IMG/VR virus record: IMGVR_UViG_3300036832_000839
Span: 1-20,880 of that record
Direction: 5' to 3' (one strand)
Length of the DNA stretch: 20,880 bases
DNA from: a virus
Shown piece by piece: positions 1,122-19,106 of the stretch. Position numbers and translations under genes: made by a program. The notes beneath the pieces were generated by a model. It worked only from the letters and a program-made list of their open reading frames with translations, was not told the DNA's origin and did not search any database. Positions within the stretch are counted from its first letter, which is position 1. Each line of letters starts with the position of its first letter.

Positions 1122-4100
1122 ATGGCCGACAAGAGCGTCTTTTCGCTTGACCTCGAAACGCAGGCTTTCGACAAATTCAAGCGCGACTTTGACGATTACT
1201 CGCAGAAGCTGAGCGGCACCGTCGCCGGGTGGAAACAGGCGGCCAAGGCGATCAACGACGCCAAGGCTGCGGTCACCGGCCTCAATCAGGGCATGGCGCG
1301 GATGCAGGCGTCGATGCGCCCGCTCACCGTGCAGATGCGCGACTACACCGGCACGGTGCGGCAGGCGCTCGGCTATTGGCGCGAGATCGCCACCATCACC
1401 GGTCAGATCGCTGGCAACGTCAACACCGCCGCTGCGGCGTCGCAGAGGATGCGGACCGGCGGCGGGGTGATCGAGGGACGCCTCGCGCCTCAGCCACGCG
1501 CGTTGCCGCCGCCGACGCCCACCCGGCCACCCACGGTGCCGTCATCGCATCAGCCGCCGCCGGGTTTCAACTTCGGCGCAGTGATGGTCTCGATTCAGGG
1601 ATCGATGCAGCATACCGCGCGGGAGATCGGCGGCATCGGCAAGGCGATCACTTCGCAGGTGTTCGGCACCGGCGGGGCGGCGTCGGCGGCGATGGGGTCC
1701 ACGATCAATTCGGTGGCGGCGTCGCTGCGCGGCGGCCCCATCGCGGCGGCGATCTCGGCGGCGGCGGCGCTGGCGGGCGGCCTGATGGCCGCGCCGTTCA
1801 TGGTCGCGCCCGGCGTCGCCGCGCTGCGCAGGCAAAGCCTTGGCATGGCGGGCGTCGGCATCAACCAACTGCGCGCGGCGGGGGCGGCGTCGTCGTGGAT
1901 GATGAACCCGGAAGGGGCGCTGGCGGGCATCATGACCGCGCGCCGCGATATCACCAGCGACGAGCGCCGGGCGATGGGCAACCTGTTCCGTGGCCGCACG
2001 CAGGAGGAACTGGCCAAGTCGAAGACCGCGCCGGGCCAAGTGATGTTCGAGGCGCTCAGAGAGGCGCGCAAGCAACTCTTGGCGATGCCGGAAGCCTCGC
2101 GCGACACGATGGCCAACACGCTCGGCTACAGCGGCCTGCTCGGCGCGGGCAACCTGCGCGCCGTGCAGACGATGTCGGACGAGGAGCTTGCCCAGCATCA
2201 ATCGCGGTGGGCGAACATTGCCCAACAGACCAAGACCACGCCTGCGCAGGATAGGGCGTGGTTCGATTTCTACGACAAGATGAATCAGGCCGGGGCGCTG
2301 ATGGAATCGGCGCTGATCAAGCATCTCGCGCCGTTGCAACAACCGCTCGCCGACCTGATGGATAGCTTCGTCAAGTTCGCCCAAAGCCCGGTGATGGACG
2401 ATCTCGTCCAGAGCTTCGGCAACCTGCTCAAGGGCATCAAGCCAGAACAGGTCGAGAAGGGGGTCGAGGGTTTCGTCACCGGCTTGGCCGACATGTACAA
2501 GGCGATGGCCGGGTTTGTCAGTTGGGCCAACGCCGCCGCCGGTTATCTCAACGCGTTCAACAATGCTCTGCAAGACACGGCCAAATGGCTGCACGTGCAT
2601 CTCGGCATCGCCGCAGTCGAGCATAAAGCCGCAACCGCCGAACGTTCCGCCACCGGGCATTCCGCCGCGCCGTTGCCGGGGGTGACGCATTTCCTCGAAC
2701 GGCATCTCGGCCGCCCGTTCCACACGGCTGAGCACCACGCCGCGTTGGCGCAACACCACGCCGCGCTGGCGCAGGCCGCCGCCGCCCCCTTCCGCCAGCC
2801 CCCGCATCCGCACACGCCGACGCCGCTCCATGCGCTGTCGCGCACGCCTTTAGCCACGCCTTCGGCCACGCCGCCTGTTGGACGCGCCGCCCCGGCGCAT
2901 CATTCTTGGCTGGGCGGCCTGTTTCACCGCACAGCCTATGAGGGCGGCGGCGACGATTACCATCAGTACATTCAGAAGGCGTCGTTCCTCGACAACCCAA
3001 TCGTCAAGAAGGGCAGGCAAGCCTATAGCTGGTACGGCAAATTCACCGGCAACCCGGCCTCGTCAACCCTCAGCGCGACCAGCGAGGCGTTGCTGTTCCA
3101 GAAGTATGTCCTGCCGTTGATCAAGGGCTATGGCGGGGCCGCCGCCACTGGGCTTGGGATCGCTGCCGCCCCGGCGATGACCGGGCCGTTGACGGCGGGC
3201 GGCATGAAGGGCGCAATCGCCAGCGACGATGCGAACAGGGCGCAGTTCTACCGCTTGCTCAACCTGTTGCGCGGCGGCGAAGGCGGCGGATCGACCGTGA
3301 CGACGAAGGATCAAGTCAAGGAGCAACAGAAGACCAACGACATCCTGACCGACATCAAGCTCGGCGCGACCAAGGCCAGCGCGGCGGGCGGCGACGATTG
3401 GCACAAATACATCTCGAAGGCCGCTTACGTGACCGGCGGCGACGGCGCGACCGGCGGCGGGGATGGCGGCGCAGGCGGCGGGGCGGGCGGCGGTGATCAA
3501 GGCGGGGGCGGCCAGCCCGCGATGCCCGGCATGCCCTCGCTCACCACGCGCGGGGGTGGCGGGATACTGGGTCGCGTGCGCGGCATGTTCGGCGGCGGGT
3601 TCAAGGGCGGTGGCGGGGGTGGGAGAGGCGGCGGCTTTAAGGGCGGCGGCGGGTCGTCTGGCGGCGGCGGCGCGAGCGGCGGCTGGGGCGACCCCGGCGT
3701 GGCCGCTCCGCATCTGAAGGCGAACCGAAAGGCAGTGGCGTCGCTGGTGGCGTCTGAGTTTGAAAAGGCCGGGGCGTCCAAGGAGGGCGTCGCGGGCATG
3801 TTCGCCAACATTGGATCAGAGAGCGGTTTCAATCCGGCGATCATGGAGAAGGGAGGCACTGGTCTTGGGCTGTGGCAATTCAGCGGGACAACCGCCGGAA
3901 GTGAAAGAGGCCGGATGCTGAAATGGATGAAGGACAACAATAAGGATTGGCGCGACCCCAAGGCCCAGACCGATTATCAGATTCAAAATTTACAGAAGAA
4001 CTATCCAAAGCTTTGGGCGGAAATGAAGACCCATGCATCCTCCAGTTCGCAAGCGACCGCGTATCTAAAAGACTACGAGAGGCCGCGTGCAGATTATCTG

Positions 4101-4365: not shown

Positions 4366-5730
4366 ATGCGCTTCTATGCCGTGGTGATCGATGGCGCGCC
4401 GACCGCGTTCATGCGCGCGCCGGGCGCGCCGTTGATTCCCGGCGCGCAATTCTGCTCGGTGGTCGATACCGGCGGCGGCTTCGGCTTCCAGAACGATCCC
4501 AGCGCGCTGCGCTGCCAGATGCACATCGAGATCGGCCCGGTGCATCAGGCGTTTTCCAACGGCTTCGTGCGCCTGTGGGGGCCGGACCTCAGCATGCTGT
4601 CGCAGGCCAGCAACCTCACCAATCTGCCAATTGGGGTTTACGGCGGCTTCTGGGGCGGCGGCCCGCGCGGGCTGGCGCTCGAACTGGCGAAGGCGGAAGC
4701 GCCCTTCGCCGGTCTGGTGGCCAGCGGGCACATCTATTGCGCAATGGGCAACTGGGTCGGTCAGGACATGACCTTGGACATCTTCCTCGCCCCGTCAGGA
4801 CCGCCACAGAGCGCCGGTGGCGGGGGTGGCGGCGGCGGTGGGGGTGGAGGAGGGGGCGGGGCGCAAGACGTCTCGGCGAGCGCCCGGCGGCTGCGGCAGC
4901 GGCAATTGATCGGGCGACCGATGACCCGCGCTCGGCCGCCGGTGTCGGCGACCCAGTTCGACAATCCGCTGGGCGGACTGACCGGCGATATTTCTTCGCT
5001 CGCGCAGGCCTTCTCCGGCTTCACCAGCGGCGGCTGGCTGCAATCGCCGCTCAACATGATTCACAACATGATGCCCGGCATGTCGCTCGACAGCGCGATG
5101 CAACAGACCTTGGGCACCGTCTTCCCGACCTCGAAGATCGTGTCGCTGATGAAGAGCGGGCTGAAGCTGCCCTATCAGGACGCCGGGTTCTACCAGACCT
5201 TCAGCCAGTACGCCGGTTACGCCAAGGCGCTGTCGAAGAGCATCGTCAATGGCGCGGGCGCGGGTTCGTCCGGCGGCCCGTCCGTCAGCGCCGCCAGCGT
5301 CGGCAGCATGGCCGGTGGTTCATCTGGCGGCGGCAGCTACGGCGGCGTCAACATCTTCCCGGTCAAGGACAAGATTTTCCTGCACGACGGCACGCAAAAT
5401 TCCGGCGAGGTGGCGCTGCGCTTCATCGACCTGATCGGCCAGCCGACGTGGGTCAAGCCGGGAACAATCAATTTCATGACGCCGATGCGGGACGACATCG
5501 TGCCGACGATGATGGTCACCATGCCGCCGAACACGCTTCAGTCCATCGCCGCCGATCCGGCCAACCGCTACGGCGGCGGCATCCTGCCGCATTCGCTGGC
5601 GATCAATTTCCAAGGTTCCTTTCAAGTGCAGCACGTCATCATTGTCGGCGATTCGCGCCATCCCGACGGCAAGTCGTGGGCGCTCAGCGTTCAGGCCACC
5701 GTCGGCGGCGCAACCGGCGATGGCGGTTAG
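4366..5730 (+). CDS. Baseplate hub-like protein with poly-Gly linker
   Basis: This 454-aa protein begins at ATG 4366, one base after the tape-measure stop; the frame is open further upstream but that part lies inside the tape measure. Residues 1-145 form one domain, with CQMHIEIGPVHQAFSNGFVR, VRLWGPDLSMLSQASNLTNL and IGVYGGFWGG. It resembles hub proteins of contractile or Mu-like tails, in which VxVWG...L followed by a small VYGG element recurs. Fifteen consecutive glycines (codons 151-165) link it to a basic stretch and a middle region. A C-terminal domain (about residues 325-450) follows, with KDKIFLHDGTQNSGEVALRF and a closing WALSVQATVGG. The position between tape measure and spike genes supports a hub role. 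The family link is an inference; the C-terminal domain could belong to another tail component. Confidence 0.55.
   Translation: MRFYAVVIDGAPTAFMRAPGAPLIPGAQFCSVVDTGGGFGFQNDPSALRCQMHIEIGPVHQAFSNGFVRLWGPDLSMLSQASNLTNLPIGVYGGFWGGGPRGLALELAKAEAPFAGLVASGHIYCAMGNWVGQDMTLDIFLAPSGPPQSAGGGGGGGGGGGGGGGAQDVSASARRLRQRQLIGRPMTRARPPVSATQFDNPLGGLTGDISSLAQAFSGFTSGGWLQSPLNMIHNMMPGMSLDSAMQQTLGTVFPTSKIVSLMKSGLKLPYQDAGFYQTFSQYAGYAKALSKSIVNGAGAGSSGGPSVSAASVGSMAGGSSGGGSYGGVNIFPVKDKIFLHDGTQNSGEVALRFIDLIGQPTWVKPGTINFMTPMRDDIVPTMMVTMPPNTLQSIAADPANRYGGGILPHSLAINFQGSFQVQHVIIVGDSRHPDGKSWALSVQATVGGATGDGG
4816..4860 (+). repeat. Poly-glycine codon tract (15 Gly), G-run rich
   Basis: Fifteen Gly codons in a row, using GGT, GGC, GGG and GGA mixed, connect the N-terminal domain of the hub-like protein to the rest. 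The coding strand contains several runs of four to five G within 45 bases. It could form G-quadruplexes and is a likely site of length variation by slippage. The mixed codons argue against a recent pure expansion. Confidence 0.9.
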
Positions 5731-5740
5731 GAAGTGAGCG

Positions 5741-6463
5741 ATGGTCTTCAATCCCAAATTGGCGTTTCAGGTTTCACCGGTCTGGCTGACCGGCCCGCCG
5801 GTGGCCAACATGCAGGGCAAGATGCTGCCGATCATCGCCATCACCGATCCGCAGCTTTATTCGCAGGTCGCCATGCCGGTCGGCGCGCCACGGGTGCTCA
5901 ATCCGATTGATCTCGATGACGCCTTCGGCGCGTTTCAGGTGATGCCCGGCGGGTCGCTGATTAAACAGGAGGTCGCCCAATATCCGTTCGCCAACCAGTA
6001 TGTCGCGGGCAACGCCACCATCTTCTCGCCGCTCGAAGTGTCGCTGATCTGGGACACGCCGATGCGCGGCGCTGGCGCGTGGGCCAACCGGATGGGGGTG
6101 ATCGGGATGTTGCAGGCGTGGCTATACAATCACAACAACAGCGGCGGCACCTTCACCGTGGTCACGCCGTCGTTCATCTACGAGGACATGCTTCTGACCT
6201 CGCTCACCGATAGCTCGCGCGGCCAGAACCCCATCCCGCAGAATGCGTGGCGCTGGGACTTCACCAAGCCGATGATCCGGATCAGGGACCTCACCCTCGC
6301 CCAGAGCGCGCTGATGTCCAAGCTCACCGCTGGCACCCAGACTGACGGCAGTTGGAGCGGCTATCTGGCCGGGGTCAACGTGCAAGCGCAGTTGCCGCAA
6401 TTCACCGTTCCCGGCACGATGGCGCTCCCCACCGGGCAGGGCGGCCAAACGATGACAGCATGA
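5741..6463 (+). CDS. Putative baseplate/tail structural protein
   Basis: This 240-aa protein has no clear signal peptide or catalytic motif. It is rich in Pro, Gly and aromatic residues and probably mostly beta, typical of virion proteins. Landmarks are the N-terminal FNPKLAFQVSPVWLTGPPVA, a central VSLIWDTPMRGAGAWANRM, and a WRWDFTKPMIRIRDLTLAQS segment. The start ATG 5741 has an AGGAAG element just after the upstream stop at 5728-5730. Its stop overlaps the next ATG (ATGA at 6460-6463). Lying between the hub-like gene and the plug-like gene, it most likely contributes to the central baseplate. I do not recognise the family with certainty. Confidence 0.6.
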   Translation: MVFNPKLAFQVSPVWLTGPPVANMQGKMLPIIAITDPQLYSQVAMPVGAPRVLNPIDLDDAFGAFQVMPGGSLIKQEVAQYPFANQYVAGNATIFSPLEVSLIWDTPMRGAGAWANRMGVIGMLQAWLYNHNNSGGTFTVVTPSFIYEDMLLTSLTDSSRGQNPIPQNAWRWDFTKPMIRIRDLTLAQSALMSKLTAGTQTDGSWSGYLAGVNVQAQLPQFTVPGTMALPTGQGGQTMTA

Positions 6464-13126: not shown

Positions 13127-15514
13127 ATGAACAAACGGGTCAAACCACCGCCGGTCAAACTGCCGCTCGCGCCCGCCCAGCTAGCGCTCACCCAAGCGCC
13201 GGGGGCGCAGCCGCAGGCCGGACCGCAGCCGCCGCCGACGCCGTGGGTCAAGCACGGCACCTTCATCTCCTACCCGCGCGGGGTGGTGGTCGGCCAAGCC
13301 TACAGCATGGGCGATGGCACGCTGAACGCCCAAGCGCTCTACGTGAACGGCAAGCCGATCATCTCGATGCCGGAAGCGCCGCTCGACGGCACCACCTACG
13401 GGCGCTCGAACGGCACGTGGCTGCGGACCCCGCCCTATGCGGCGACCGCCGACATTGACGGCAAGTCGCCTTCGCCGACGGCGGTGGTGCCGTCGAGCGG
13501 GCTGCGCGCCATCACCGGCGGCCAATTGGCGACGCTGAACACCGTGTCGAAGACCGGCCTCATCCCCGCGATCAACGAACTCAACACCACCATCAAGGCG
13601 GTCGCCGGGGGGATGGAGTTGTGGGGCGAGTTCAGCGCCGCCGACGGCAGCATCACGTGGAACACCTTGAGCGGCCAGAGCGGCAACGCCCTGCCGACGC
13701 CGGACGCGGCGATGGACGGCGTCTATCTCGTGTGCTCGCAAGGCGGCGGCGTGCCGCCGGTCGGCGCGGTGGTCGAGGCCTATCTCGCGGGCGACGAACT
13801 CTTGTGCGACGGCGACCGCTGGGCGCATATCGAGATCAACTCCGGCACCGTCTACGCCTCGACCGTGGTGACCAGCCCGGTGGTGCTCGGCCAAGCGACC
13901 GTGCAGGCCTCGCTGGCGGCGCTTCAGACCTATGCCGATTCGATGGACGCGGGGATCGTCGGCGTCGCGCCGACCCAGATCATTCAGTCCTTGCGCTCGA
14001 CCGCGCCGAACACCGCGCCCGCCGCCGGGGCGCGCTCACCGGGCGAATTGTGGGTCAATTTTCCTGACGGCCAGATCGGGTCCATCGATGAGGCGCAGAA
14101 CCCGGTGCCGTTCGTCGGCGTGCGTTATTTCTCGTCGCAGACCAACTACGCCATCGGCGATCACGTGGTCTATGCTGGGGCGCTCTACCGGGCCATCGCC
14201 CCGGTCATTCCGGCCGCGTTCGATCAATTGCAATGGACGCTGGCGGGTGGCGCGGTCACCGTCGCCGACGTCGCCCCGGACAATCCGCAACCCGGCAATC
14301 TGTGGTTCGACGGCGTCGGCGCGCAACTCTATATCTGGGTGGACGACGGCACCTCGAAGCAATGGGTGATCGCCATCAACCAGCCGCCGCCGACCGGGCT
14401 GGTGCCGGAAGCGCCGACCGACGGGGCGGTGTACGGCCGGTCCAATCTGTCGTGGCAACCGGCGCTGCCGCTGGCGGGCGGGACGATGGGCGGCGAATTG
14501 ATCTTGGCCGGAGACCCGGCCCAGCCGCTGCAAGCCTGCACCATGCGCCACGCCGACACCAAGCTGCCGCTCAGCGGCGGGGTGATGACCGGTCCGATCA
14601 CGCTTGCCGCCGATCCGACGCAAGCCCTCCAGCCAAGCACCAAGGCCTATGCGGACACCAAGCTCGCGCTGGCGGGCGGCACACTCACTGGACCGGTGGT
14701 GTTGTCCGGGCCGCCGACCGCCGCGCTGAATCCAGCCACCAAAGGCTACGTGGACAACGCGCTGCCGGTCGGCGCGGTCACCCTGTGGGGCGGCGGACTC
14801 GCTCCGGCGAATTGGCTTTTGTGCGACGGCACGGTCTACCCAAACGCCAATATTCCGTTGCTCGCGCCCGTGCTCGCCAACCGTTGGGGCGGCGTTTCAG
14901 GCACCTCGAACGCGGTGCCCAATCTGGTGAACTGCTTCCCGCTTGGCGCAGGCGGCGGCACCGCGTCCGGCGCGACCGGCGGCGCATCGACGGTGGCGCT
15001 CGACATCTCGATGCTGCCGCCGCACGCCCATGTGGTCAACGACGGCGGCCATGTGCATGGCGTCAACGACCCCGGTCACGCGCACTCGGTCGCTGACCCC
15101 GGCCACAACCACGCCTTCCAAGACCCGCAGCACACCCATGGCATCGGCGACCCCGGCCACGCGCACGGTCTTTCCGATCCCGGCCACGCGCACGGCTATC
15201 AGCAATGGGGCACGGCGACCATTCCTTGCTACGGTCAGGCCACCTATTATCAGGGCAACGTCAACGCCACGACCGGCGGCAGCGGCACCGGCCAAGGCGT
15301 CTACGGCGCGGGCACCAGCATCAGCATCTCCTACGGCGTCACCCGCTGCTACAACAGCGCCTCCGGCGTCGGCCTTGGCATTTACGGCGCGGGGACCGGC
15401 ATCTGGCTGGCGGTGAATGGGACGGGGATAACCCTTCAGAACACCGGCAGCGGCGCGGCGCACAACAACATGCCGCCGTGGCTGGGGATCAATTTCATCA
15501 TCAAGTATCAGTGA
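13127..15514 (+). CDS. Large tail fibre with collar domain and His-x-His needle
   Basis: This 795-aa protein is the main fibre candidate. The N-terminus (1-40) is Pro-rich. Two copies of an 'AP-DG--YGRSN--W' motif occur (about residues 85-100 and 428-443). Residues about 335-375 (NYAIGDHVVYAGALYRAIAP, then a Trp) resemble a small carbohydrate-binding module. Residues 447-545 are three tandem 33-residue fibre repeats. Then comes a phage tail collar domain (VGAVTLWGGGLAPANWLLCD). Residues 633-689 carry seven His-x-His motifs at exact nine-residue spacing. Such motifs chelate iron along the trimer axis in the T4 gp37 tip. The C-terminal ~100 residues are Gly/Tyr/Ser-rich and end MPPWLGINFIIKYQ, a common fibre ending. 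A fibre chaperone is probably needed. Confidence 0.85.
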   Translation: MNKRVKPPPVKLPLAPAQLALTQAPGAQPQAGPQPPPTPWVKHGTFISYPRGVVVGQAYSMGDGTLNAQALYVNGKPIISMPEAPLDGTTYGRSNGTWLRTPPYAATADIDGKSPSPTAVVPSSGLRAITGGQLATLNTVSKTGLIPAINELNTTIKAVAGGMELWGEFSAADGSITWNTLSGQSGNALPTPDAAMDGVYLVCSQGGGVPPVGAVVEAYLAGDELLCDGDRWAHIEINSGTVYASTVVTSPVVLGQATVQASLAALQTYADSMDAGIVGVAPTQIIQSLRSTAPNTAPAAGARSPGELWVNFPDGQIGSIDEAQNPVPFVGVRYFSSQTNYAIGDHVVYAGALYRAIAPVIPAAFDQLQWTLAGGAVTVADVAPDNPQPGNLWFDGVGAQLYIWVDDGTSKQWVIAINQPPPTGLVPEAPTDGAVYGRSNLSWQPALPLAGGTMGGELILAGDPAQPLQACTMRHADTKLPLSGGVMTGPITLAADPTQALQPSTKAYADTKLALAGGTLTGPVVLSGPPTAALNPATKGYVDNALPVGAVTLWGGGLAPANWLLCDGTVYPNANIPLLAPVLANRWGGVSGTSNAVPNLVNCFPLGAGGGTASGATGGASTVALDISMLPPHAHVVNDGGHVHGVNDPGHAHSVADPGHNHAFQDPQHTHGIGDPGHAHGLSDPGHAHGYQQWGTATIPCYGQATYYQGNVNATTGGSGTGQGVYGAGTSISISYGVTRCYNSASGVGLGIYGAGTGIWLAVNGTGITLQNTGSGAAHNNMPPWLGINFIIKYQ
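14465..14761 (+). repeat. Three tandem 33-residue tail-fibre repeats
   Basis: Three exact 99-base units (14465-14563, 14564-14662, 14663-14761) encode the pattern LPLAGGTMTGP-I-LA-DP, followed by LQP-TK-YADTK. They probably form successive trimeric shaft segments ahead of the collar domain. A fourth unit lies at 15957-16055 in a separate small gene. Confidence 0.95.
15023..15193 (+). repeat. Seven His-x-His motifs with 27-bp period
   Basis: HxH codons start at 15023, 15050, 15077, 15104, 15131, 15158 and 15185, exactly 27 bases apart. The nine-residue unit is D-P-G-H-x-H-x-x-x in its best form. In a parallel trimer each HxH would supply six His ligands to one metal ion, as known for the T4 long tail fibre tip. 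Confidence 0.95.
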
Positions 15515-16085: not shown

Positions 16086-16258
16086 CCCTTGGCGATGTCA
16101 GCAAGGAGACCATCGGGGCGCTGAAGGGCCAGCCGATGTTGTTGGTGATCGTCATCCTCAACGTCTTGATGCTGGCGATGATCGGCTATTCGGTGCGGAC
16201 GGCGCAGGCCAACAATCACGCCATTCTGCAACTCGCTCTGGAGAAGTGCGGCAAATGA
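16082..16258 (+). CDS. Putative holin, single transmembrane segment
   Basis: This 58-aa protein has one strong membrane segment at residues about 17-36 (QPMLLVIVILNVLMLAMIGY). A short N-terminal helix (LGDVSKETIGALKG) precedes it and a polar helix ending in EKCGK follows. It overlaps the stop of the previous gene and the start of the endolysin gene (ATGA at both ends). The endolysin has no signal sequence and so needs a pore to reach the cell wall, which makes this the best holin candidate. The single TM and small size fit a class III-like or pinholin-like protein. A spanin subunit is less likely, since no lipobox partner is seen. Confidence 0.7.
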   Translation: MTLGDVSKETIGALKGQPMLLVIVILNVLMLAMIGYSVRTAQANNHAILQLALEKCGK

Positions 16259-16917
16259 CCATGCAGCAATTCGACCGCGACTATTTCTTCGACGTGGTGC
16301 GCGCCAGCCTGTTCCATGGTTCACTGTCGCAAAGCCAAGTCGATGGGATGAATTACATCCTCGATCAATGGGACAAGCTCTGGGAAGCCAACTTCCCGCG
16401 CGGCGACAAGCGCCATCTCGCCTACTGTCTCGCCACTGTCTACCACGAGACCGGGCAGGCGATGCGTCCGGTCGAGGAATGGGGCAAGGGCGAGGGTCAC
16501 TCCTATGGCCAGCCGACCGGGCCTTACGATCACTGCTACTACGGTCGCGGCCACGTTCAACTGACATGGGAAGACAATTATATCGCCGGGACCGAACGGC
16601 TGAAGCCCTACGGCCTCGACGCGGACCTGCATCAGCATCCGGAACTGATGCTGGAGGATGCGATCTCGGTCACCATCCTGTTCGATGGCATGCGGGACGG
16701 CTGGTGGACCGGGGTCGATCTCGACAAATACATCAACGATGCGACTGAGGACCCGGTGAACGCGCGACGGGTGGTCAACGGCACCGACAAGGCCGACACC
16801 ATCGCGGGCTATTACTGGAAGTTCAAGGACGCGCTGCAACCCGCTCCGGCCGAACCGGAGCGTCCGACCGACGGGCCGCAGATGGAGAAACCTCGCCGCC
16901 GCTCGCGTCCGCGCTGA
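16255..16917 (+). CDS. Endolysin, GH19 chitinase-like lysozyme
   Basis: This 220-aa cytoplasmic lysin should cleave the glycan backbone of peptidoglycan at the end of infection. Residues 54-67 hold LAYCLATVYHETG, with Glu65 as the probable catalytic acid of the GH19 fold. EEWGKG follows and then YYGRGHVQLTWEDNY (residues 95-109), the strongly conserved GH19 substrate-cleft motif. The fold continues to about residue 190 (ARRVVNGTDKADTIAGYYWK), again typical. The last 25 residues are Pro-rich and then Arg/Lys-rich (EKPRRRSRPR), perhaps a disordered tail binding anionic membrane or LPS. There is no signal peptide. The start at ATG 16255 overlaps the holin stop; an ATG two codons later (16261) is an alternative. 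Confidence 0.88.
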   Translation: MTMQQFDRDYFFDVVRASLFHGSLSQSQVDGMNYILDQWDKLWEANFPRGDKRHLAYCLATVYHETGQAMRPVEEWGKGEGHSYGQPTGPYDHCYYGRGHVQLTWEDNYIAGTERLKPYGLDADLHQHPELMLEDAISVTILFDGMRDGWWTGVDLDKYINDATEDPVNARRVVNGTDKADTIAGYYWKFKDALQPAPAEPERPTDGPQMEKPRRRSRPR

Positions 16918-17132: not shown

Positions 17133-17436
17133 GCGCCAGAGCGCGCTCGGCCGCGAGTTCTTCGTCCCACGGTTTAAGGTCCGGCCAGAGTTCAGCCCCT
17201 TCAGGCGTGAGCACGACCTCCCGCGCGGGCGGGTCAACTTGGGCCGGGTCGTCGGTGGCCTTGAGCGCCGCTTCTTTGATCGGCGGCGTCACCGCCACCG
17301 GCGGCGTGCGACGGGCGTACAGCCCGCCGCAGTGTTGGGGCGTCTTGTAGTTCCAGATCGAATAGCAATGGGCGTCGGCCGGTCCCGCAATTGCGATTGC
17401 GATCACCGCAATTGCGGGTTTCACGATTCGCCCCAT
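17095..17436 (-). CDS. Exported small protein, unknown function
   Basis: The 113-aa product has a Sec-type signal peptide: MGRIVKP, then a hydrophobic Ala/Ile core to about residue 18, and a likely cut after ADA (residue 22). The mature protein begins HCYSIWNYKTPQHCGGLYAR, with Cys24 and Cys36 able to form a disulphide. A Pro-rich stretch and an acidic/helical C-terminus (ELWPDLKPWDEELAAERALA) follow. ATG 17436 overlaps the end of the collar-like gene by 16 bases, so the two are probably coupled. The frame is open further upstream, but that part lies inside the collar-like gene. It may be a periplasmic partner of that protein. No lipobox, so it is not an obvious o-spanin. Confidence 0.65.
   Translation of the reverse strand: MGRIVKPAIAVIAIAIAGPADAHCYSIWNYKTPQHCGGLYARRTPPVAVTPPIKEAALKATDDPAQVDPPAREVVLTPEGAELWPDLKPWDEELAAERALALNRLRQELAAPR
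17384..17418. repeat. 12-bp inverted repeat in the signal-peptide codons
   Basis: Arms at 17384-17395 (CCCGCAATTGCG) and 17407-17418 are perfect reverse complements with an 11-base spacer. The sequence encodes the Ala/Ile core of the signal peptide of the 113-aa protein, so it may simply reflect repeated GCA ATT GCG codons. On the plus strand it is followed only by TTT, too little for a confident terminator. Confidence 0.6.
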
Positions 17437-17753
17437 GAGTCCAATGACGGCAGGATCATCCCGGCTGACGTTATGCCATACTTGATCAGGGTGACGCCGA
17501 CCGGCGGCGACTCGACGGCGGCGCGCATGTCTGGCAGACGGAATCTGTCGTGCGACCCGCCATAGAGATGGCCAAGAAGGCTGAACAGTTCCGGTTCGTC
17601 GCTCGCGCGCAGCCAACCGCCGTCGCACAAGAGAAGGCCGTTGCTCAACCGGGTCGCCGATGGCCGCCATAGCTTGACCGGCATGAGCATCTCGGCCCGC
17701 GCGATGGCGGGCGCGGCGATCAGTCCGAGAAAGAATGTGCGCCGGTTGATCAT
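17421..17753 (-). CDS. Exported tail-collar-domain protein (Tat-like signal)
   Basis: The best start is ATG 17753, giving 110 aa that begin MINRRTFFLGLIAAPAIARA. This is a twin-arginine-like or Sec signal with a likely cut after ARA. The frame opens slightly earlier (17777), but that would bury the signal. The mature part (about 21-85) is a compact version of the phage tail collar fold: LWRPSATRLSNGLLLCDGGW, then a helix LFSLLGHLYGG, then FRLPDMR. The CDG and LPD-R signatures are both present. The C-terminus is VTLIKYGITSAGMILPSLDS. It is encoded with early-type genes, opposite to the virion genes. An exported collar domain might shield a receptor or block a superinfecting tail; this is inference. 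Confidence 0.75.
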   Translation of the reverse strand: MINRRTFFLGLIAAPAIARAEMLMPVKLWRPSATRLSNGLLLCDGGWLRASDEPELFSLLGHLYGGSHDRFRLPDMRAAVESPPVGVTLIKYGITSAGMILPSLDSWGES

Positions 17754-17764
17754 CGCTAGCGGCG

Positions 17765-18208
17765 CTACTCGCCCCACGACGGGTCATTGTCCGCGCCGCC
17801 TTCGCTCGACATCGAGCGCAGCATGCCGAACATCTGGCGCGCCAGCTTGCCGTCCGGCACCGAACAGACCCGCCTGCCCAGCCGGGTGCGGTGACGGCGC
17901 AGGAGTTCGATCACGTCGGCCATCGCGGCGTCGAGATCACGCTGGGTCTGCTCGTCGGCTTCCGCCGCGCGCTGGCGCTGGGCGCTGTCGGCGGCGACGG
18001 CGACGAGGGTCATCATGTCGTTCTCGACCGCTTCGTGGATGTCGGCGTTGCGCACGGCTTCGATCACGCTGGGTCTAGCTTGGTTCATGTCTCTCACCAT
18101 TGCTCTGTTTGACGTGATGTCGCCCGTCTCGTGGGCGCTGTGGACGGTCCAACCGGCGGCCTCTAAAGCCGCCACTTGATCGAATGGAACCTCAATCCGC
18201 TCGATCAT
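17765..18208 (-). CDS. Hypothetical protein downstream of ssb
   Basis: This 147-aa protein starts at ATG 18208, overlapping the SSB stop by one base. The N-terminus (IERIEVPFDQVAALEAAGWT) looks like a small alpha/beta element. Residues about 37-115 are mostly helical, rich in Ala, Glu, Asp and Arg, and might form a coiled coil (DEQTQRDLDAAMADVIELLR). The C-terminus is acidic (SMSSEGGADNDPSWGE). No membrane segment and no motif recognised. Coupling to SSB suggests a role in DNA replication or recombination; this is only contextual. Confidence 0.6.
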   Translation of the reverse strand: MIERIEVPFDQVAALEAAGWTVHSAHETGDITSNRAMVRDMNQARPSVIEAVRNADIHEAVENDMMTLVAVAADSAQRQRAAEADEQTQRDLDAAMADVIELLRRHRTRLGRRVCSVPDGKLARQMFGMLRSMSSEGGADNDPSWGE

Positions 18209-18726
18209 CAGAATGGGATGTCGTCGTCTAAGGGCGGGTCGGGCTGGCGGCGACCGCCCAAGGCCTCGTCGCGGGACATCCCGGTGGCCCGGTTGCCGTA
18301 GCCGCCATTGTCGCGGCTGGGCCGCGTGCTGCCGCCCGCGCCGTCGTTGTAGCGGTCGCCCCGGTCGTCGCTGTCGCTGCGGCTGCCAAGCAGCACGAGG
18401 TCGCCGCCGAATTTGGGCATGGTCACCTCAGTGGTGCTGCGATCCGCGCCGTTCTGGTCAACCCATTTGCGGGTTTGCAGCTTGCCCTCGATATAGATTT
18501 GCTTGCCCTTGGTGACGAAGCGCTCGATCACGCTGATGAGGTTCTGGTTCCAGCATTGGACGCGATGCCACTCGACCCGCTCCTGTTGATTGCCGTCGCG
18601 GTCCTTCCACCTCTCGTTGGTGGCCATAGTGAAATTGGCGACCCGGTCGCCGCTCTGCATCGTCTTGATTTCCGGGTCCTGTCCGACGTGGCCGACAAGG
18701 ATCACCTTGTTCATACTGCCGCTCAT
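18208..18726 (-). CDS. ssb: Single-stranded DNA-binding protein
   Basis: This 172-aa SSB binds and protects single-stranded DNA during phage replication and recombination. Residues about 5-110 are the OB-fold with standard family landmarks: MNKVILVGHVGQDPEIKTMQ, VANFTMATNERWKD, VEWHRVQCWNQ and KGKQIYIEGKLQTRKW. A Gly/Arg/Asp-rich disordered linker follows (about 118-160). The C-terminus is DDDIPF, the acidic tip that recruits replication proteins. ATG 18726 has an AGAGGA element upstream and overlaps the HNH stop; an internal ATG at 18714 (MNKVIL) is the usual family start and a second option. It looks full-length and functional. Confidence 0.95.
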   Translation of the reverse strand: MSGSMNKVILVGHVGQDPEIKTMQSGDRVANFTMATNERWKDRDGNQQERVEWHRVQCWNQNLISVIERFVTKGKQIYIEGKLQTRKWVDQNGADRSTTEVTMPKFGGDLVLLGSRSDSDDRGDRYNDGAGGSTRPSRDNGGYGNRATGMSRDEALGGRRQPDPPLDDDIPF

Positions 18727-19106
18727 GCTCTGCTTCCTCTGATTGGCCCGCGCGGGATGGTCTTGGACGTGGGAGCGCATGGGCTGGGCTTGGGTGGGCG
18801 TGGGGCGAAGCCCCGCGATTGCATCTTGGGCGGTTCGCGCAGGCCGAGATGCTTGGCCTCGATGCGGCCCATGCGCTTGACCACCGCGTTGTCGGCGGCG
18901 TCCTTTTCGGCGAAGCAGCAATAGCCAAGCACCTGCGCGTTCTCCAGCGTCTTCGCGCCGTTGAGACCGGCGGCGCGGATGTGATCGACCCGCTTGCGTT
19001 TGATGATCAAGCCGCAGCCGTCGCAGTGAATCTCGCCGTTCATGTCGGTGGCGCGCTTGATCGCGGCGATCTTGACCGCGCGCGAGAAATCGTTGGGGCG
19101 GGTCAT
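18723..19106 (-). CDS. HNH endonuclease-like protein
   Basis: This 127-aa protein has a compact HNH core. Cys28-x2-Cys31 (HCDGCG) is followed by VDHIRAAGLNG with the Asp41-His42 pair, then TLENAQVLGYCC with Asn57 and Cys63/Cys64. ADNAVVKRMGRIEAKHLG comes next, a helix seen in small phage HNH proteins. The third metal-ligand region reads CCFAEKDAAD instead of a clean C-x2-H, so activity is uncertain. The C-terminal 35 residues are basic and Pro-rich. The start ATG 19106 overlaps the upstream stop (ATGA); a TTG two codons earlier is possible. In this operon it could process replication intermediates or act as a nicking enzyme. Confidence 0.75.
   Translation of the reverse strand: MTRPNDFSRAVKIAAIKRATDMNGEIHCDGCGLIIKRKRVDHIRAAGLNGAKTLENAQVLGYCCFAEKDAADNAVVKRMGRIEAKHLGLREPPKMQSRGFAPRPPKPSPCAPTSKTIPRGPIRGSRA

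Follow-up and report, generated by a model that had tools for sequence, protein, structure and literature searches.

A small phage protein with a Tat-type leader and a tail collar domain represents a putative family of envelope-directed proteins with interchangeable, often virion-derived cargo

The present analysis suggests, with a probability of about 0.6, that the 110-aa phage protein P0001 is a putative Tat-exported envelope protein and belongs to a family of small phage proteins in which a conserved Tat-type signal and a mature start of the form xSLMPV[K/R] precede an interchangeable cargo that is often derived from the virion. In P0001 (ORF translation, 110 aa: MINRRTFFLGLIAAPAIARAEMLMPVKLWRPSATRLSNGLLLCDGGWLRASDEPELFSLLGHLYGGSHDRFRLPDMRAAVESPPVGVTLIKYGITSAGMILPSLDSWGES) this cargo would be a minimal tail collar domain. 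The signal peptide is predicted to route the product via the host TatABC translocase, signal peptidase would cut after ARA at residue 20, and the resulting mature protein, of roughly 9.8 kDa and beginning EMLMPVK, would be active in the periplasm or envelope of the infected cell. As to its job there, our leading guess, a tentative one even if this picture is right, is that P0001 acts in the envelope as a modulator of infection or superinfection.

The window analysed is a complete IMG/VR record of 20,880 bases, a phage fragment, and its relevant features are collected in Table 1. On the minus strand, transcription proceeds from an HNH endonuclease-like gene through SSB, the 147-aa gene, and the leader-collar gene to the 113-aa gene, and these genes are convergent with the plus-strand endolysin-type gene. 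This order, converging on the endolysin-type gene, places the leader-collar gene outside the virion operon. The sequence-only reading of this DNA had located the gene on the strand opposite to the virion genes and next to SSB; the strand assignment is correct and SSB does run in the same direction, but the 147-aa gene separates the two. The codon-position GC of the leader-collar gene (0.60/0.51/0.79) fits the coding genes of the phage. The 113-aa product matched no family and was not found near other leader genes, nor was the HCYSxW neighbor conserved alongside the leader in other loci. The holin-like ORF and the endolysin-type gene that it precedes are likely a lysis cassette, convergent with the exported-type genes.

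Table 1. Features of the window discussed in the text, with residue numbers referring to P0001
Feature	Coordinates	Strand	Remarks
Leader-collar gene, P0001, 110 aa	17421..17753	-	ATG start at 17753; in-frame GTG at 17777 as alternative start
Tat-type signal peptide, predicted, residues 1-20 (MINRRTFFLGLIAAPAIARA)	17694..17753	-	Leader HMM; leader alignment
Predicted mature start EMLMPVK, residues 21-27	17673..17693	-	Family consensus xSLMPV[K/R]; protein-level conservation ends just beyond
Compact tail Collar domain PF07484, residues 38-79	17517..17642	-	Pfam match; gp12 similarity; model
C-terminal 31 residues	17424..17516	-	Align with C-terminal part of the L004 leader-collar protein; low-confidence structure
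Next gene, 113 aa	17095..17436	-	16-nt overlap with the leader-collar gene; predicted Sec-type signal, mature start HCYSIWNYKTPQHCGG
147-aa gene	17765..18208	-	Directly upstream of the leader-collar gene; no confident family
SSB	18208..18744 (region searched)	-	PF00436, E = 8e-35; phrog_44
Ordinary tail fiber, 795 aa	13127..15514	+	Own Collar domain at 14771-14941
Holin-like ORF, 58 aa	16082-16258	+	One TM; directly precedes the endolysin-type gene
Endolysin-type gene	16258-16917	+	phrog_181, E = 3e-26

P0001 has the layout MINRRTFFLGLIAAPAIARAEMLMPVKLW...LLCDGG...LFSLLGHLYGG...FRLPDMR, and the proposal of the sequence-only reading that it joins an export-type signal to a compact collar is borne out by profile searches of both parts. 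Specifically, the N-terminus matches an HMM built from 71 other leaders, with P0001 itself excluded, at E = 1e-11, whereas none of a background of 5,279 ORFs, taken in six frames from other loci, matches at E <= 1, and residues 38-79 match Collar (PF07484) at E = 3e-11 and 43.5 bits against a gathering cut-off of 24. The signal carries a twin arginine (R4R5), a 13-residue hydrophobic stretch (residues 6-18, GRAVY 2.05), a basic R19, and an A-R-A cleavage-like site; such a basic residue immediately ahead of the cut is the kind of feature known to disfavor Sec. P0001 is absent from the matches to the Pfam TAT_signal profile (PF10518) at E <= 1, and just 11 of the 72 family leaders reach E <= 0.1, but this profile is short and weak and thus a poor discriminator of Tat substrates.

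Across 23 aligned collars the invariant residues are C43, G45, F71, L73, P74, D75, and R77, some of which were part of the pattern used to collect them, and P0001 retains all of these. In tblastn and phmmer searches P0001 matched T4-type gp12 short tail fibers (E = 1e-5, and E = 0.001 for T4 gp12 among solved structures, 1ocy, aligned over residues 26-78). The single-sequence fold of P0001 reached a pLDDT of 34, and an AlphaFold2 model that included the 23 collars is confident over the collar core alone (residues ~31-80, pLDDT about 71-91); the top matches of this model in a fold search, T4 gp12 and a cyanophage fiber, were weak (E about 1). Compared one to one, the collar of P0001 and that of the phage's own 795-aa fiber are barely alike (E = 0.046). 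P0001 also departs from a virion tail fiber in consisting, at 110 aa, of a signal and then a collar, with neither shaft nor oligomerization region, and in lying outside the virion operon. The earlier view of an exported collar protein distinct from the virion fiber is therefore well supported at the sequence level. No close relatives of P0001 were found in IMG/VR, and in a related phage (G001, 48% baseplate protein) there was no match to P0001, with a leader regular expression negative over the first 13 kb.

The leader is far more widespread than this particular combination. A pattern search at the DNA level for APAI[VA]RAxx(L)MPV hit 69 stretches of IMG/VR but just 6 among the GTDB genomes (257 Gb), and the matches are nearly all short ORFs of the form RR-x-F...GL...AAPAIVRA-xSLMPV[K/R] whose C-termini are unrelated. 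Since the pattern was built on P0001 and on prior knowledge of leaders of this type, these counts, and with them the size and limits of the family, are biased toward P0001. The alignment invariants are R4, R5, A14, P15, A16, and I17, the last four of which were imposed by the search pattern, while the twin arginine, LxGL, the S before LMPV, and the K/R after it are conserved outside the pattern. Third codon positions vary with little constraint, and conservation breaks off directly after the K/R, so that selection acts on the leader as protein; for the same reason, a mobile DNA repeat was rejected as the nature of the leader, the conservation being at the protein and not the DNA level. Among 43 records, all selected for having at least one leader copy, 41 have exactly one, one has two, and one has three, and a reversed control pattern gave 0 matches. 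The family members come almost entirely from uncultivated contigs, and the leader alone found no match among isolate phages, to which the low-complexity filter may contribute. No fixed neighborhood was found around the leader genes, their neighbors being diverse. Collectively, these sequence comparisons indicate that P0001 belongs to a widespread and apparently undescribed phage family of small proteins with a conserved leader and interchangeable cargo.

About one-third of the cargos are recognizably pieces of virion proteins, namely of major capsid proteins (MCPs, of four lineages), portal, and tail collar; about two-thirds have no recognized origin, so a virion derivation is not shown for all of them. 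In BLAST comparisons with phage ORFs the cargos matched large phage proteins, which PHROGs names as major head proteins (phrog_283, 212, 334, 9953) and head-tail adaptors (portal-type connectors). With HMMs built from the MCPs of these phages (iE < 0.01), MCP pieces were found in 20 of 73 leader proteins but in just 1 of 616 further small ORFs from these loci (Fisher p = 5e-20, a value made optimistic by related members and spurious control ORFs), and shuffled cargos gave 0 matches at E < 0.01, also when the MCP sets were enlarged. A donor search over 3,215 ORFs of phage contigs returned MCPs and one portal as clear donors, with 0 of 365 shuffled cargos matching. For phages whose MCP lineage is known, the cargo agrees with that lineage. 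The pieces derive from the N-terminus, middle, and C-terminus of the MCP and are sometimes out of order; in the gene at L043:2910-3290, cargo residues 5-42 correspond to MCP 376-413 and are followed by residues 48-75, which correspond to MCP 103-130. In L071 and L008, an MCP piece is joined to a short portal-like YGRSP piece. When 19 other leader proteins were scanned against PHROGs, the L004 collar was the one cargo to receive a name. Two routes to such cargo were considered. Recent, spacer-like capture from a competitor was rejected for the L013 and L043 cargos, since no MCP above 57% identity to them was found in IMG/VR, and they are thus not fresh captures from anything in that collection. 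An origin of the leader genes by tandem duplication of the MCP gene, or by its read-through, was rejected as a general cause, the leader gene lying 0.5-50 kb from the MCP gene; in 6 of 22 cases it is on the opposite strand.

Individual loci illustrate the diversity of these cargos. The phage of L043 carries three minus-strand leader genes (1240-1602, 2910-3290, and 3287-3673), each with different MCP pieces, and L008 has two overlapping tandem leader genes (5701-5970 and 5964-6290, plus strand), again with different MCP pieces, the second also bearing the portal-like piece. In L065 (4469-4717, plus strand) the cargo resembles a piece of the phage's own portal (phrog_1216), and capture is therefore not limited to the MCP. 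L029 (4591-4848, minus strand) and L061 (477-734, plus strand) have in common a Cys-rich cargo with a GMCAHTGGP motif (51% identity over 39 residues) that is possibly metal-binding. A recurrent subfamily with long cargo of no assigned origin (143-167 aa, APAIVSAQNLMPVK) is represented in L010, L015, L021, L039, L041, L046, L048, L052, L068, and L110, and the non-MCP cargo of the L010 family is under purifying selection, with a median dN/dS of 0.24.

Several other models could account for such a protein. One holds that the leader alone matters, either for targeting or as the source of an xSLMPVK peptide freed by cleavage, and that the cargo is drifting filler from coding DNA supplied by recombination. 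The abrupt stop of conservation after the K/R, the lack of relatedness of cargos between phages, and the fact that cargo pieces can be permuted and cut from anywhere in the MCP all fit this model. However, the donors are strongly nonrandom, being nearly always the MCP and then portal or collar, the L010 family cargo is under purifying selection, and the collar of P0001 has kept every invariant residue, and we consider the model unlikely. A cytoplasmic role is distinctly less probable. Here the leader would remain unprocessed, as an anchor or within the cytoplasm, and the virion-like cargo would act inside the cell, for instance as a decoy that engages host sensors of virion proteins (capsid, portal, tail) or as a modulator of assembly. 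Capsid and portal proteins are known to be sensed by bacterial immunity, and the cargo is indeed self-virion material, mainly MCP and portal. Against this model, the leader retains every feature of a cleavable Tat signal, the basic residue ahead of the cut site among them, and a decoy would have no need of one.

The sequence-only reading had proposed a third function, in which the collar, once exported, would sit on a target in the periplasm or at the surface and thereby block superinfecting tails. P0001 does unite a signal with a receptor-tip domain in a single small protein encoded apart from the virion operon, and L004 encodes a relative with the same plan. Nevertheless, the other proteins of the leader family mostly bear different cargo; where this is recognizable, it consists chiefly of pieces of the phage's own MCP, and in some cases of portal, which would be useless for blocking a receptor. 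Exclusion is thus not supported as a function of the family in general. For P0001 alone an exclusion role is possible, but its collar differs from that of the phage's own fiber, and fibers such as T4 gp12 have a trimeric shaft and a receptor-binding tip, neither of which accompanies this collar; we regard tail blocking as quite improbable. Least probable is that P0001 is an ordinary minor component of the virion or tail whose N-terminus misleads: collar domains are otherwise parts of tail fibers and P0001 is similar to T4 gp12, whereas the opposite strand, the early-type neighbors, the missing shaft, and a leader common to nontail cargos all speak against it. We thus favor the model of a Tat-exported envelope protein with interchangeable cargo. 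A bolder extension of this model, which we hold to be unlikely, is that many phages possess a one-gene system for the repeated capture of pieces of their own virion proteins (capsid, portal, collar). Each piece would be joined in frame to an invariant Tat leader and exported into the host envelope, there to act as a mimic of virion components directed at phages that compete or return, or at an envelope target of the host.

In the open-access literature we found no description of such leader-cargo proteins, nor are we aware of another family that places exchanged, in some cases permuted, parts of a phage's own capsid, portal, or tail proteins behind one conserved export signal. The combination of leader and swapped virion cargo would therefore be a new architecture, with a function that is putative. 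If the products are exported, these phages keep a dedicated gene that places fragments of their own virion in the host envelope, an activity that is as yet unexplained. Should the cargo prove to be filler, the leader would still identify a common phage gene that as yet has no name, and the preference for MCP pieces would still call for a mechanism.

Several known systems resemble P0001 in part. The releasin of phage Mu, gp25, is also small, has a twin-arginine motif at the membrane, and has been suggested to touch the Tat system, but its topology is reversed, its role is in lysis, and no relation to P0001 is shown (PMC9239132). The sole other collar-bearing leader protein found is that of L004 (IMG/VR 3300020122_000201); two pattern scans for leader-plus-collar proteins otherwise returned only ordinary tail fibers. 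It shares with P0001 the leader, the compact collar, and a similar C-terminus (39% identity in the alignment), and its cargo matches that of P0001 at E = 1.6e-7, with the alignment extending into the C-terminus, whereas at 157 aa it is longer, both at its C-terminus and through roughly a dozen extra residues that separate the leader from the collar. The two may share a single origin. T4 gp12 and other PF07484 collar proteins have the CDG, LYGG, and FRLPDMR elements of residues 38-79, from which P0001 differs in lacking a shaft and tip, in bearing an N-terminal export-type leader, in its length of 110 aa, and in its position away from the virion operon. RhiB-type proteins, which are among the nearest plasmid matches of P0001 (39% over residues 13-77), are likewise small and collar-bearing, and their genes too lie apart from any set of virion genes; however, RhiB is 195 aa long, has a longer tail-type C-terminus and no such leader, and belongs to a bacterial rhi operon. 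In L003 (4080-6049), rhiA-rhiB-rhiC lies on a Rhizobium plasmid, where RhiB is a collar protein without phage context. Finally, prophages and phages encode exported envelope or exclusion proteins such as Bor and Lom of lambda, Cor of phi80, Imm and Sp of T4, and gp15 of HK97. To our knowledge, none of these has a comparable leader or a cargo taken from its own capsid, portal, or collar, which sets them apart by description, but like P0001, for which the targeting is predicted, they are small, phage-encoded, and directed to the envelope.
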